Notes under the pieces: model-generated | What the model was told of the DNA's origin: nothing | The model's input: only the letters and a program-made list of their open reading frames with translations | Database searches by the model: none | Made by a program: the position numbers and the translations under genes | In this document: piece by piece, positions 40,446 to 46,790 of the stretch | Layout: every line of letters starts with the position of its first letter | Position numbering within the stretch: the first letter of the stretch is position 1 | Source of the DNA: Pseudomonadota bacterium | GTDB taxonomy: Bacteria > Desulfobacterota > Desulfobulbia > Desulfobulbales > Desulfocapsaceae | Assembly: GCA_018820855.1 (NCBI GenBank) | Contig: JAHJNL010000052.1 | Location: 1 to 64,000, forward strand | Direction of reading: 5' to 3' | Length of the DNA stretch: 64,000 nt

Positions 40446-41132
40446 ATGAAAAGAGTAGTGTCGGCCTTGGCCGCCGGTCTGGTATTTTTGGCTGTTCAAA
40501 ATGTCCAGGCTTTTAACCCGCAGGGAGGAAATGCTCTCTGGGGAAAATATGCCATTCAAACATGCCGATCCTGTCATAAAGAAAAGGGCTTGACTGCACT
40601 GGATCCTCAAGAACGGAGCAGGGAACAATGGGAGGCTATTTTTGCTGACGACTATAAAAAGCTGAGAGAGATGTCCCATGATTTTTCTGCTGTGGGCATA
40701 AATGACAGGCAACTGGAAAATATCTATCGGTATCTGGTGGAGACCTCAACAAAAAATGCATCTGTAACGGAAGTGGCAGCAGTACCTGTCACAAAAACAA
40801 AGAAAACAACTGCTGCTGCACAGAGCCCTGCTGCAACCACCAAGCAAGAAGCGGATAAGAAGTTTGATCCGGATGCCGGTGATGCAGGCAAGGGCCGCTA
40901 TATATTCCGTAAGTGTTTGAACTGCCACAAGAAAAATAAGCTGGTTATCATTTCCCCCGGCGACCGCACCAAGAAGGCCTGGAGTCGTTACTTTGCCAAT
41001 GATTTCAAAAAATTCAAAAGGGCGATGCCAGAATTTGATACCTATGGCTATTCAGTTGCTCAGATGGAGCATCTGCATCAGTTTGTCTTGAAATATGCCC
41101 TTGATGCCGATAAGCCGAAGACCTGCGAATAA
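40446..41132 (+). CDS. Periplasmic dihaem c-type cytochrome with internal repeat
   Basis: A 228-residue secreted protein with signal peptide ending at VQA-F. Two class I-like haem units, CRSCH at 40-44 and CLNCH at 157-161, each follow a G..L/R-W/Y..F/I element and precede a W..IF.DDY/W..YF.NDF block, so the protein is an internal duplication joined by an Ala/Thr/Lys-rich linker (about 108-140). It probably shuttles electrons in the periplasm. An AAGGAG ribosome site precedes the start. It faces the 11-haem/rhodanese gene tail to tail. Confidence 0.88.
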   Translation: MKRVVSALAAGLVFLAVQNVQAFNPQGGNALWGKYAIQTCRSCHKEKGLTALDPQERSREQWEAIFADDYKKLREMSHDFSAVGINDRQLENIYRYLVETSTKNASVTEVAAVPVTKTKKTTAAAQSPAATTKQEADKKFDPDAGDAGKGRYIFRKCLNCHKKNKLVIISPGDRTKKAWSRYFANDFKKFKRAMPEFDTYGYSVAQMEHLHQFVLKYALDADKPKTCE

Positions 41133-41456: not shown

Positions 41457-43595
41457 TTATTCGAATTCCGCTGCCCATTCTGCCCAGGAACCATCATGAA
41501 CCTTAACGTTGTCGTAACCGAGATAGGTGAGCACCATATATAATTCTGCTGCAAGCATATTGGTGTTGCAGGTGGTGTAGATCTTTTTGCTTTGTGAGGG
41601 AATCATCCCTGCGGTTGAGAGCAGCCAGGATAACCGCTCTTTCGGATAGAGTTTTCCGCCGCTGTCCATGAGGGTTCGCAGGGGGAAACTGAGAGATTCG
41701 GGGATAGACCCACCTTTTCTGGCAATGTCATCTCGATTCATGTCACCATTGTGCTGGGCTGCATTGCGAACGTCGACAACAATTGTCTGCTCGCTTCCCA
41801 TGGATTCGACGATATCATGGTTGTTGACAAGAAGGTCCTGGGGCTTGACGGGATACTTTGTTATCTTTGCTACCGGCGCCTTGCCCGTGGCCAGTGGATA
41901 TCCTTGTCGTTTCCAGTCAGCAATATTCCCATCGAGAAAAGATATTTTCTCATGACCTATCATCTTTAAGGCAAGAAAAGCAATCCCCCGGCCACTGTGC
42001 TCATCATCATAAAGAACAATGCGTTTTTCCGGAGAAAGTCCAAGCCGTTTGCCTCCAAAGATCTCTGCCAGTTGTTCAGGAGGCTGCATCATATATGGTG
42101 GTGTGGTATCTGCTCCGGACCTGAAGAGGCAGAAGCAGAGGTGATAGGCCCCTGGAATATGACCCTGTTCGTATTGGGCCTTGGTCCGGGTGTCGAGTAT
42201 GATGAGGTTCTTGTCTTTTTGGTGAGTGTTCAGCCACTCCGTAGAGACTCGCATCTCCACATCCGGATCAATAGGAGAGAGAATGAAAGAGCGTCTTGGC
42301 TGGACTTTGTCAGGAACATCCTGATTTTTGAGGAGAATATGTCGATTGGCAACAAGGGTGTCAAAAGGGACACTGTCCTGAGTCAGAAAAAGTTCTTTAT
42401 TACCATGGCAATGGTTACAGTCGGCAGTCTGCCACGTCCTGCGTTGAATCGTATGGGGTGTAGCTTTTTTATATGTTGGAAGAGCGGAAAAACGTTTCAT
42501 TCCGCCAATGGTAGCATCAAAGGTGTCTCGCTGAACCCCGATTTTTCGCATGAGGACATAGCGGGGACCGTCTTTTTCCGGATTAAGACCTATGTGAAAA
42601 CCTTTTGTCGGGGGCGGTGATTGGGAGTAGGCAATTCCGTCCTCATCGGTTCCCAGGTGACAGGAATCGCAGTTCTGGTATGAAGCAGCATGGCAGACAG
42701 AGCAGGAGACATTGTTCTTGTGCAGAACATGTTCCGGAACCGGTCCTTCGAGAACCGTTGTATGACAGTCAACACACTCTGGCAGTTGCTCAAAATGATA
42801 TCTGCTGTCAGCACCCTCAGCTGAAGCATGGAGTTCCTGTCCGGAATGGCAGTCGGAACAGGTCATCTTGTATTTCTGGTAATGGATGTCGCCCTTGCCT
42901 TCTTTTCCGATAAAGTCTGTGCCGGTGGGATGGGTGTGACAGGGGAGGCATTGGTAGACAAAATCTGGTTTTTTCTGGAAAAGGTGGCCTGCTCGTAGTC
43001 CGCCACCAGCCACCGCCGGTCTGCTGACATGGCAGGAGCCGCAACTCCCCTGGTGGCAGGTGAGACAGGTGGTGTCAAGAACCGTGTCTTTGAGTCGGTC
43101 GACTTGTTCTTTGCTGCACCGCTTCTCCAGGGTCTTGTACAGAGGAGCTGGGTTCATATGCAGCGAGTTGATAGCTGCCGCGGTCAGATCCCCATGGCAT
43201 TGTCCGCAGGTGTCTTCACTGTTAAGGCTCGGGTCCGCGATCATGCCGTTGTGGGCAGTATCCGGATCTGTACTCTCTGGATCACCGAGGTGACAGAGTT
43301 GACAGGGTATTTGTCCGTGGGGGGTAGAGAGAAAGGTCTTATCGACAAGGACTTTTTCATAGAGATCAAAAGGAGCCTGTTTGATCCGGTATCCGTTTCC
43401 CCTCTGCAGTTCTGAGATTTCCGGTTCATTTTCTGCAAAACTGATGGCGTCTGCAGTGAGTTCGTCAATCGCATCCGGATTGGTGTGACAGAGAGTGCAC
43501 TGGTTCTGTGTTGAGGAATCACTCAAGGCTGGAGATGCAAGAGTAACGCCTAGTAAGGGGAGAAGGAAAAGGGCTGCTAGTTTTGCAGAGAACAT
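41457..43595 (-). CDS. Undecahaem c-cytochrome fused to a tandem rhodanese
   Basis: A 712-residue secreted protein, start with AGGAG 7 bases upstream. Residues 1-25 are a signal peptide. Eleven CXXCH sites lie between 33 and 398 (Cys33, 98, 130, 177, 185, 216, 246, 274, 298, 309, 393). Residues about 448-570 are a first rhodanese domain whose catalytic Cys position is Asp (LYDDEHSGRG). Residues about 585-712 are a second rhodanese with a Cys at 676 (YTTCNTNMLAA) and the thiosulfate-sulfurtransferase ending DGSWAEW. That inactive/active pair is the classical tandem sulfurtransferase plan. The fusion suggests a periplasmic or surface enzyme that couples sulfur transfer (thiosulfate, polysulfide or persulfide) to a haem wire. 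It follows the DUF3373 porin on the same strand. Confidence 0.92.
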   Translation of the reverse strand: MFSAKLAALFLLPLLGVTLASPALSDSSTQNQCTLCHTNPDAIDELTADAISFAENEPEISELQRGNGYRIKQAPFDLYEKVLVDKTFLSTPHGQIPCQLCHLGDPESTDPDTAHNGMIADPSLNSEDTCGQCHGDLTAAAINSLHMNPAPLYKTLEKRCSKEQVDRLKDTVLDTTCLTCHQGSCGSCHVSRPAVAGGGLRAGHLFQKKPDFVYQCLPCHTHPTGTDFIGKEGKGDIHYQKYKMTCSDCHSGQELHASAEGADSRYHFEQLPECVDCHTTVLEGPVPEHVLHKNNVSCSVCHAASYQNCDSCHLGTDEDGIAYSQSPPPTKGFHIGLNPEKDGPRYVLMRKIGVQRDTFDATIGGMKRFSALPTYKKATPHTIQRRTWQTADCNHCHGNKELFLTQDSVPFDTLVANRHILLKNQDVPDKVQPRRSFILSPIDPDVEMRVSTEWLNTHQKDKNLIILDTRTKAQYEQGHIPGAYHLCFCLFRSGADTTPPYMMQPPEQLAEIFGGKRLGLSPEKRIVLYDDEHSGRGIAFLALKMIGHEKISFLDGNIADWKRQGYPLATGKAPVAKITKYPVKPQDLLVNNHDIVESMGSEQTIVVDVRNAAQHNGDMNRDDIARKGGSIPESLSFPLRTLMDSGGKLYPKERLSWLLSTAGMIPSQSKKIYTTCNTNMLAAELYMVLTYLGYDNVKVHDGSWAEWAAEFE

Positions 43596-43765: not shown

Positions 43766-43808
43766 TGGAAAAAGAAAAAGGGACAAGCCGAGAGAGTCGA
43801 CTTGTCCC
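43766..43808 (-). terminator. Terminator of the DUF3373 porin gene
   Basis: GGGACAAG (43780-43787) pairs with CTTGTCCC (43801-43808), with an inner CGA/TCG pairing. On the minus strand the stem is followed by TTTTTCTTTTT. It separates the porin from the 11-haem gene, which therefore has its own promoter or depends on read-through. Confidence 0.85.
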
Positions 43809-43841
43809 TAATAAGTAATCACCTTTCAAGCAAGGAAGAAA

Positions 43842-45578: not shown

Positions 45579-45887
45579 GATTTCTCCCTTTGCAGAAACA
45601 GTGTAACTAGGTGACAACTGTCCCTAATTTATGTCTTCTTTTCTCCTGGCATGAATTTAATAGGGATTTTCGCTCTTTGTCAAGGGGAAAGGCGCTTTTA
45701 GCAGGGAGTATTCACAGGTAAAGTTGTTCATTGTATTCTTAAATAGGTGCTTGAAAACAAATAGTTTTTTGTCTTTCCCCGTTTCATTTTCAGGGAAGTG
45801 GTGCTATACTCACCAGGACTTGGACGGTTTTGTTCAGGGAATAGGTTAGGGAGTAGTCTTGGAGAAAGAAGTTCAGGTGGAGGAAGA
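45579..45887. promoter_or_regulatory. Divergent region between porin and c-haem sensor
   Basis: A 309-base gap that must hold promoters for both genes. It contains an AT-rich stretch near 45640-45790. No palindrome or -24/-12 site was identified. Confidence 0.35.
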
Positions 45888-46790
45888 ATGGGAATTCGAT
45901 CAAAGTTTATTACAATAATAACGGTGTTGAGTCTTTTGGCAACCCTTGCTATCGGCTATACAAGTTATATGCTGAGTCGACAGAGTGCTATTGCCGAAGC
46001 CAAGAGTAAAGGGGAAATCATTTTCAATTATATTGAAGCGAGTTCCAAGTTTTTCAGTAAATATCAGTACCCTCTGATTATGGAACAGATTACCGACAAG
46101 GACAGATTCTTTCCTGAACTGATGTCCAAGTTCGTGGTCAATCGTATGGAATACGAGATCTTTCAGGAGACCCTTGAAGGCTATCAGTTTAAGCAGGCCA
46201 CTCTCGATCCTCTGTGGCCTGATAATAAGGCCGATCAGGATGAACTGAAAGTCATTTCCTACTTTAAGGCCAACCCTGCGGCTGCTGAGCAGGAAGGCGT
46301 GATGGACAAGGGAGGGAATAAGTTTTTTTACACAGCAAAGCCCATCACGGTTAATAAAGACTTCTGTCTCACCTGTCATGGCGATCCGGCTGATGCCCCT
46401 CAGGATCAACGGGATATCTATGGTACTGAAAATGGTTACAACTGGACAATGGATGATACCGTGGGAACCTCCATTGTTTACATCTCTATTTCCAAGGCAT
46501 TGGCCGATGCAAAGCAGTCTGCTTTGAAAATTTTTCTCGTAGGTATCGGCTGCCTGCTGGTAACAATCATCTGTATCTGGGTATTTCTTGATCGTTCAGT
46601 GGTTGCACCGATTATTCATCTTTCCGACGCAGCCAAGGATATCAGTATCGGTAAGAATCTCTGTGATTCTATCCATACTGATTCCAATGACGAGATTGGC
46701 GTGCTTGCCAATTCCATTGATCGGATGAGGATCAGTGTCAACAAGCTGTTGAAGCGTACCTGCCCGGATCGGAAGAGTACGAAAAAATAA
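45888..46790 (+). CDS. Second membrane c-haem sensor (Tll0287/DUF3365-like) with HAMP domain
   Basis: A 300-residue paralogue of the protein at 23573-24451. The ATG at 45888 is chosen because GGTGGAGG lies just before it; an earlier frame start adds 30 unlikely residues. Helix 1 is at about 8-29; the periplasmic haem domain has CLTCH at 160-164 followed by GDPADAPQDQ; helix 2 is at about 215-237; a HAMP domain and a short basic tail close the protein. Shared blocks include FKQATLDPLWP and the YGTENGYNW segment. It has no output domain. It diverges from the DUF3373 porin, so it may monitor the redox state of that pathway (inference). Confidence 0.85.
   Translation: MGIRSKFITIITVLSLLATLAIGYTSYMLSRQSAIAEAKSKGEIIFNYIEASSKFFSKYQYPLIMEQITDKDRFFPELMSKFVVNRMEYEIFQETLEGYQFKQATLDPLWPDNKADQDELKVISYFKANPAAAEQEGVMDKGGNKFFYTAKPITVNKDFCLTCHGDPADAPQDQRDIYGTENGYNWTMDDTVGTSIVYISISKALADAKQSALKIFLVGIGCLLVTIICIWVFLDRSVVAPIIHLSDAAKDISIGKNLCDSIHTDSNDEIGVLANSIDRMRISVNKLLKRTCPDRKSTKK

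Follow-up and report, generated by a model that had tools for sequence, protein, structure and literature searches.

The 64,000-nucleotide stretch studied here (the window: positions 1 to 64,000 of contig JAHJNL010000052.1, assembly GCA_018820855.1, from a member of the Desulfocapsaceae) carries on its minus strand, at 41457..43595, a gene for a fused rhodanese-cytochrome, made up of a signal peptide, an eleven-haem cytochrome (residues 33-397) and a tandem rhodanese (residues ~445-712). Alignments and phylogeny indicate that its product is the fused, porin-associated branch, devoid of selenocysteine (Sec), of an exported eleven-haem cytochrome family. The genes of this family, mostly with a Sec-type TGA and its hairpin, are linked to a rhodanese, either tandem or single. 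The relatives of this protein point to a family of eleven-haem selenocysteine cytochromes that appears to have gone unrecognised. We did not find it in the open-licence literature, as covered by titles, the first part of abstracts and a term search of PMC10553843, nor in the table passages of a selenoproteome review (PMC13188914). The initial annotation of this DNA had described the fusion of an eleven-haem cytochrome with a rhodanese pair and overlooked that the cytochrome is, by comparison with its homologues, in a selenocysteine family and the window copy in its Sec-less branch.

An in-frame TGA conserved among the relatives

A match to the window protein at 1e-20 was found in 36 of 144 genomes, its own genome (G000; G and L are our labels for genomes and loci) included, and outside the genus the matches that cover the cytochrome mostly hold an in-frame TGA. 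When the relatives are read with the TGA open, this codon stands directly after the first CXXCH, in GSGUGG, GAGUGG or AGUG motifs. A collection of named genomes yielded 318 relatives, the best 80 of which were read. The TGA lies within 80 codons past the first CXXCH in 68 of these 80 loci and is also present in L054, which is cut before the first haem site, making 69 of the 78 readable named loci (L062 and L065 are cut before the TGA site and could not be read). The complete TGA genes have, in each case, ten haem sites past this codon. Nine loci are without it (L032-L039 and L059), with Tyr at this place in eight and Cys in one. In the window the codon alignment sets TAC, coding for Tyr69 (43389..43391, minus strand), at the place of the relatives' TGA.

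A further 394 genomes of the phylum were drawn separately, with only two candidates scored per genome, so that the counts are lower bounds. At least 63 genomes had a match at 1e-40, at least 57 matches covered the cytochrome from its start region and at least 53 held one or more TGA codons, their position being unchecked. Among the matches listed four were free of TGA, three from the genus of the window and one more, G500:C33 (L124:5636-6877), a stand-alone eleven-haem homologue with neither TGA nor rhodanese or porin beside it. This is likely a second, separate loss of Sec, outside the rows of the tree described below. It is followed by a nine-haem protein with cytochrome-b-like membrane helices (L124:6760-8757). 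Another genome, G105, carries both forms, one with Tyr and a porin (L011/L122) and one with the in-frame TGA (G105:C67).

A selenocysteine insertion sequence (SECIS) hairpin with a GTT loop follows the TGA inside the coding sequence; counted from the first base of that codon, it begins 12 nt further downstream. It could be aligned in 54 of the 68 TGA loci; L068, L069, L071, L076, L077, L079 and L081, which have other spacing, were left out, and likewise L088, L093, L096, L101, L102, L106 and L108. In the 54 loci, standard pairs make up 96.5% of the cells, compared with 37.5 to 50.2% for a slid partner, and 38 cells changed on both sides, against 8.4 (standard deviation 2.1) in shuffles. The covariation score was 0.395, which none of 500 shuffles reached (0.182 after shuffling). 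When the 45-nt sequences were folded singly, their mean z was -1.6 relative to mononucleotide shuffles, and 53 of 68 were below -1. The hairpins of the Sec genes fold at -9.3 to -24.1 kcal/mol over 45 nt, while nothing comparable was seen in the Tyr and Cys genes checked, that of the window included (0 to -4.6 kcal/mol, for a different length of 33 nt).

The machinery for Sec is present in the genome of the window. SelA (609.5 bits, cut-off 268), SelB (367.7, cut-off 242) and tRNA-Sec (73.4, cut-off 47) were all found, together with SelD, which itself has an in-frame TGA. Loss of the machinery was therefore rejected as the cause of the Tyr in G000, where this residue is a local choice. In G008 we found SelB, tRNA-Sec and a TGA-containing SelD, and the profile search of this genome gave no SelA match, so that its machinery may be incomplete or its SelA missed. 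Across 20 TGA-bearing relatives of the 144-genome set, SelB and tRNA-Sec were each over the cut-off in 14. SelA and SelD were searched in 7 of the 20, and in G029 alone all four components were absent over the cut-off.

The fused gene and its cytochrome half

The gene is a single intact open reading frame of 712 amino acids with an ATG start and no internal stops. By motif count the protein has 11 CXXCH sites, and Pfam finds Cytochrome_C7 (3.6e-10) and two stretches of PF00581 Rhodanese (2.2e-30), which bears out the initial claim of eleven CXXCH sites and a rhodanese pair in one polypeptide. The N-terminal signal peptide, seen by eye at about residues 1-25 (43521..43595, minus), is without a lipobox Cys and the protein is thus probably exported to the periplasm. 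The cytochrome region that follows (42405..43499, minus) is homologous to the selenocysteine cytochromes in both alignments and tree.

The fused gene has one copy in G000, and the same full-length layout is present in homologues of other genomes, which rules out a product of chance or of assembly. A frameshift or false fusion, which the initial annotation had named as a danger, is likewise ruled out by the single open frame and the fused homologues. The other half of that concern, that homologues are split into separate genes, is true outside the fused clade, where cytochrome and rhodanese are separate neighbouring genes in 37 of 43 split loci. The closest named relative is L032, from a Desulfocapsa metagenome-assembled genome (MAG), with 83% identity.

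No NCBIfam model scored over its cut-off in the cytochrome half of the window protein or of the eight relatives scanned, and a profile search against PDB sequences turned up nothing beyond a weak match to NrfA (6.5e-4, 69 positions). The predicted model of the whole protein has a mean predicted local distance difference test (pLDDT) score of 77.2, rising to about 90 across the rhodanese part. With residues 1-327 no cytochrome fold appeared among the Foldseek and VIA-align matches listed, both lists being filled by rhodanese matches. The same genome encodes another protein with 11 CXXCH sites, of 596 amino acids and weakly similar (2e-4) to that of the window (G000:C52:32933-33373; L133:5803-7593).

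Phylogeny, fusion and loss of selenocysteine

The tree was built from 78 cytochrome rows, with the window and L011 added and without L054, L059, L062 and L065, in which contig ends leave fewer than 11 haem sites. All Tyr and Cys rows fall into a single clade (100/100) whose sister group is the 25 fused Sec rows (100/99), and both lie inside a fused clade of 35 rows (100/99). The three states of residue 69 require two changes on this tree, which is the minimum possible. Among the 43 split rows, a rhodanese gene of one cluster is directly downstream in 36, and in 37 when L061, with a rhodanese in frame after the cytochrome stop, is counted. Of the six remaining, L073 and L104 are near a contig end, L110 has the rhodanese one gene away and in L099, L105 and L109 no rhodanese was seen near the cytochrome gene. 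The co-occurrence of cytochrome and rhodanese, which had been proposed as a check of the fusion, is hence wider than the fusion itself. In the simplest history, a split pair of Sec cytochrome and rhodanese would have become fused, and Sec would then have been lost with the gain of a DUF3373 porin as neighbour. Within the genus we counted 10 Tyr forms and one Sec form (G016). No match was obtained in 9 of the 20 genomes, of which 4 are at least 95% complete and some are incomplete.

We then compared the residues that changed along with Sec. In the cytochrome, 82 positions are at least 93% conserved across the 68 Sec forms; at least 9 of 10 Tyr/Cys rows retain 70 of them, some rows retain another 7, and 5 have been lost. 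The five lost positions are Sec69, Leu149 (65/68 Sec forms), Arg223, Glu227 and Trp375. The window protein has Pro223 (42927..42929, minus) where all 68 Sec forms have Arg, Asp227 (42915..42917, minus) where all 68 have Glu, and Tyr375 (42471..42473, minus) where 67 of 68 have Trp; the 10 Tyr/Cys rows all share the Pro and the Asp, and have Tyr or Phe at the last position. We infer from this joint change that Sec69, Arg223, Glu227 and Trp375 belong to one site. Tyr69 is kept in 10 of the 11 clade proteins compared, at identities down to 45%. New cysteines have also been fixed: Cys160 (43116..43118, minus) and, in the first rhodanese domain, the pair Cys487-x-Cys489 (42129..42137, minus) are each present in 11/11 proteins of the Tyr/Cys clade and in 0/22 fused Sec forms. 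This comparison of fused proteins used 22 of the 25 fused Sec rows, L041, L066 and L070 being incomplete.

Apart from those of the CXXCH sites, eight histidines (93, 115, 146, 204, 238, 256, 292 and 381) do not vary across the 78 rows, and position 289 is nearly invariant. Eight or nine is fewer than the eleven distal ligands needed for all haems to be bis-His, a count that is only suggestive.

The rhodanese half

Residues ~445-712 of the predicted model match RhdA of A. vinelandii (1e0c) with a Z of 30.2 and a root mean square deviation of 2.5 over 257 aligned residues, in agreement with the sequence match. The first domain (residues 451-563; 41907..42245, minus) was located by Pfam and has Asp530 in the alignment column of the catalytic Cys. 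The second (residues ~590-709; 41469..41828, minus), identified by Pfam and by the fold match, contains Cys676 (41568..41570, minus) in the loop CNTNML, predicted from the same column to form the persulfide. The pair is therefore inactive/active, as initially described, and DGSWAEW does stand near the C-terminus of the second domain, with a few residues beyond it. Conservation of Cys676, on which the initial annotation had made its proposal depend, is complete in the 33 fused homologues compared (11 of the Tyr/Cys clade and 22 Sec forms). Tandem rhodaneses and 3-mercaptopyruvate sulfurtransferases (RhdA 1e0c, SseA 1urh) likewise have two domains, the first inactive and the second with the catalytic Cys; the window protein differs from them in being exported, joined to an eleven-haem cytochrome and in its active loop CNTNML. 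With the 3-mercaptopyruvate sulfurtransferase model NF008557 it scored 114.1 bits, under the cut-off of 250.

The porin gene and the neighbours of the Sec forms

Upstream of the fused gene and on the same strand is a gene for an outer-membrane porin of the DUF3373 family (PF11853; 43842..45617, minus; Pfam match 174-591). This arrangement was found in 12 of 12 loci seen of the Tyr/Cys clade (the window, L032-L039, L059, L122 and L126), while no porin match was present in the remaining 71 loci of the 80, many of which are on short contigs, nor in L124. The porin gave no NCBIfam match at 0.01 and its predicted model was poor (mean pLDDT 34.8). Between the porin stop and the cytochrome start there is a terminator-like hairpin of 13 pairs with a T tail (43779..43809, minus). 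Hairpins of this kind numbered 5 in the region scan against 4.4 in shuffles, and similar ones were seen by eye between porin and cytochrome in 8 related loci. An outer-membrane barrel gene beside that of a periplasmic multihaem cytochrome is the arrangement expected of a porin-cytochrome conduit; by eye, neither the window nor L126 has an outer-surface redox lipoprotein encoded next to these two genes on their strand.

For the Sec forms, clusters of neighbouring genes were named from one representative each (NCBIfam or Pfam). A NapC/NrfH-type five-haem protein is encoded near 7 of the 80 loci, all of them fused Sec forms and on the opposite strand, and the alpha subunit of formate dehydrogenase-N near 5 of 80, on the opposite strand in L089 and L091. 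Near split Sec forms there are a LysR regulator (5/80), a YedE transporter (4/80) and a Se/S carrier (4/80); the LysR and YedE representatives are over the cut-offs of models that are selenium-linked. The NapC/NrfH and formate dehydrogenase-N neighbours point weakly to a flow of electrons from haem to substrate.

Comparison with known systems

A similar set of parts, rhodanese, porin and selenoprotein cytochrome, is found in the Geobacter ext cluster, which has been tied to selenite and tellurite reduction (PMC5877670, PMC6148476). An association of rhodanese, porin and Sec-cytochrome is therefore already of a known kind. In extHIJKLMNOPQS, ExtH is a rhodanese, ExtI a porin, ExtKL the Sec cytochrome and ExtM and ExtN are cytochromes. 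The rhodanese part of the window protein scored 38.1 bits with ExtH (NF040901), under the cut-off of 200. Its cytochrome part reached 99.1% with ExtM in hhalign and 99.4% with a ten-haem protein taken as ExtN by its place and haem count. A nine-haem protein outside the ext cluster of the same genome, used as a control, scored nearly as high (98.6%), so a specific kinship with ExtM or ExtN was rejected and the relationship is only at superfamily level. ExtKL has 5 haems and carries its Sec after them, in GHxIPDGUPTPNR, whereas the window cytochrome has 11 haems and no Sec. Membership in ExtKL (NF040886) was rejected on this haem count, the absence of a match in G000 at 1e-30 and an hhalign value of 19%. 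The porin was also rejected as an ExtI, since it reached only 0.2% with the presumed ExtI, a protein assigned by its place. The window system further departs from the ext cluster in its single fused chain and its DUF3373 porin.

In Dethiobacter alkaliphilus an octahaem cytochrome similar to SirA/Otr is encoded with rhodaneses and has been proposed for sulfur reduction (PMC10376724). Clusters 5-T and 4 of this organism combine in one gene cluster a multihaem cytochrome and rhodanese-domain proteins. By their description these cytochromes are different, being octahaem and separate proteins, and selenocysteine or selenoproteins are nowhere mentioned in the available part of that paper. The octahaem tetrathionate reductase family TIGR04315, also multihaem, showed weak local similarity in 3 of 4 Sec relatives scanned (22 to 30 bits). 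It has 8 haems against 11 here, the relatives do not exceed 29.9 bits with a cut-off of 375, and the window protein gave no match at E 0.01. A table in PMC13188914 lists a Sec-annotated GenBank entry under TIGR04315.

Possible function

Taking all these data together, we consider it probable that the window protein is a periplasmic chalcogen redox enzyme, a reading based in part on the chemistry of rhodaneses. Cys676 would accept sulfane sulfur, with thiosulfate, polysulfide or a different persulfide as the donor (its equivalent in the Sec relatives might possibly accept selenium), and the attached haem chain would exchange electrons with the bound atom. In the relatives Sec69, Arg223, Glu227 and Trp375 would form or shape a reaction site near haem 1, and these proteins look more like reductases. 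In Desulfocapsa this site would have been rebuilt as Tyr, Pro, Asp and Tyr, with the three new cysteines, including the CxC of the inactive rhodanese domain, as the best candidates to relay sulfur or electrons, and the DUF3373 porin would most likely let the substrate through the outer membrane. A bolder form of this reading, which we offer only tentatively and think likelier to fail than to hold, makes the Sec relatives new selenium-dependent multihaem chalcogen reductases. Their selenolate, together with the Arg-Glu-Trp set, would act at haem 1 or directly on it, perhaps as a ligand of this haem, and trade sulfur or selenium with the partner rhodanese; Desulfocapsa would have rebuilt the catalyst free of selenium, with Tyr and a CxC relay, into a one-chain haem sulfurtransferase for zero-valent sulfur.

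Several observations weigh against the redox enzyme reading. The model of the cytochrome is of moderate confidence and without haems, residues 69-73 and 190-209 being below a pLDDT of 50, so that it does not support proximity of residue 69 to 223, 227 and 375 or to haem 1. The stem branch of the Sec-less clade is long (0.63), and some of the changed positions may therefore be drift. The hairpin between the genes implies that porin and cytochrome may not be co-expressed. Few loci (4 to 7 of 80) supply the links with neighbours of the Sec forms, which in part lie on the opposite strand, and unrelated genes are seen there just as often, for example an acyl-CoA dehydrogenase cluster in 5 loci. As for the hairpin after the TGA, the number of pairs with change on both sides was 4, against 2.7 in shuffles, and was reached by 42 of 500.

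The protein could instead work in the oxidative direction, as the initial annotation proposed, the rhodanese loading sulfane sulfur during the disproportionation of S0 or thiosulfate and the haems carrying electrons away. Desulfocapsa sulfexigens lives by sulfur disproportionation and nine rhodaneses are listed for it, among them UWK_00046 (PMC3739170), which from its position is probably the homologue found at 55.8 kb in G008, itself probably D. sulfexigens. Sec and the presumed pocket have also been rebuilt in precisely the Tyr/Cys clade. However, some neighbours of the relatives look reductive and the lack of a match in 9 of 20 genus genomes means that the protein is no general requirement in disproportionation; such a general role is not supported by the spread of the gene. 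We judge an oxidative role rather unlikely. An outer-membrane electron conduit of the Mtr/Omb/Ext type, in which the DUF3373 barrel and the cytochrome pass electrons between outside and inside and the rhodanese serves for docking or as a surface domain, would account for the porin adjoining the cytochrome gene in all 12 clade loci and has in the Geobacter extHIJKL genes a case of rhodanese, barrel and cytochrome selenoprotein coupled (PMC6148476). Such a conduit is made unlikely by the two-gene unit itself, where by eye no gene for an outer-surface cytochrome was seen, by a barrel part of only ~420 residues (PF11853 174-591) unlike the protein taken as ExtI and matching no NCBIfam model, by the terminator-like hairpin that separates the two genes, and by the absence of a porin match in the 71 other loci, many on short contigs, and in L124.

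It is similarly unlikely, in our opinion, that the cytochrome half is a relic that lost catalysis with Sec and only relays electrons, leaving ordinary sulfur transfer to the rhodanese. The joint loss of Sec, R223, E227 and W375 would fit such a decay, but Tyr69 is kept in nearly the whole clade (10/11) in spite of the low identities, three cysteines have been newly fixed and 70 of the 82 otherwise conserved positions remain. Lastly, the TGA of the relatives could be a true stop, a sequencing error or a different recoding, in which case the cytochrome would not be a selenoprotein. SelB and tRNA-Sec were each found in only 14 of the 20 TGA-bearing relatives and one of these has none of the four components over cut-off. 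Against this, the codon recurs at one and the same motif in 69 of the 78 named loci that could be read, every complete gene has ten haem sites past it, and a covarying SECIS lies at a constant distance from it but is not seen in genes with Tyr or Cys at this place, all of which makes the explanation hardly credible.

If our reading is true, a family of selenoproteins has escaped notice, probably through gene callers that end the frame at the TGA past the first haem, and selenium, rhodaneses and electron-wire cytochromes are linked in the anaerobic chemistry of sulfur and selenium. A natural experiment would then be offered by the Desulfocapsa branch: one scaffold with and without Sec, a genome (G000) that keeps the whole machinery, and a set of identified residues that have changed in concert. 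For S0 disproportionation, the pathway is described as unresolved in PMC3739170 and the first step as unknown in PMC8780430; the fused protein is a testable, although not universal, candidate for this process.

Other genes

Convergent with the fused gene, the window encodes at 40446-41132 (plus strand) a di-haem class I cytochrome with no lipobox by eye, a relative of which is found at the same place in L032, L034, L035, L036 and L038. Divergent from the porin gene, at 45798-46790 (plus), there is a protein with a Tll0287-like haem-sensor and a HAMP domain that may regulate the porin. G000 has two further DUF3373 porins, one at G000:C73:116313-117500, with no multihaem cytochrome seen beside it in 18 kb, and another at G000:C26:1843-3078, on a 3.4 kb contig. 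Near the Sec cytochrome of an Anaerolineaceae MAG, a protein of ~860 amino acids with 21 haems is encoded at L110:1869-4559.

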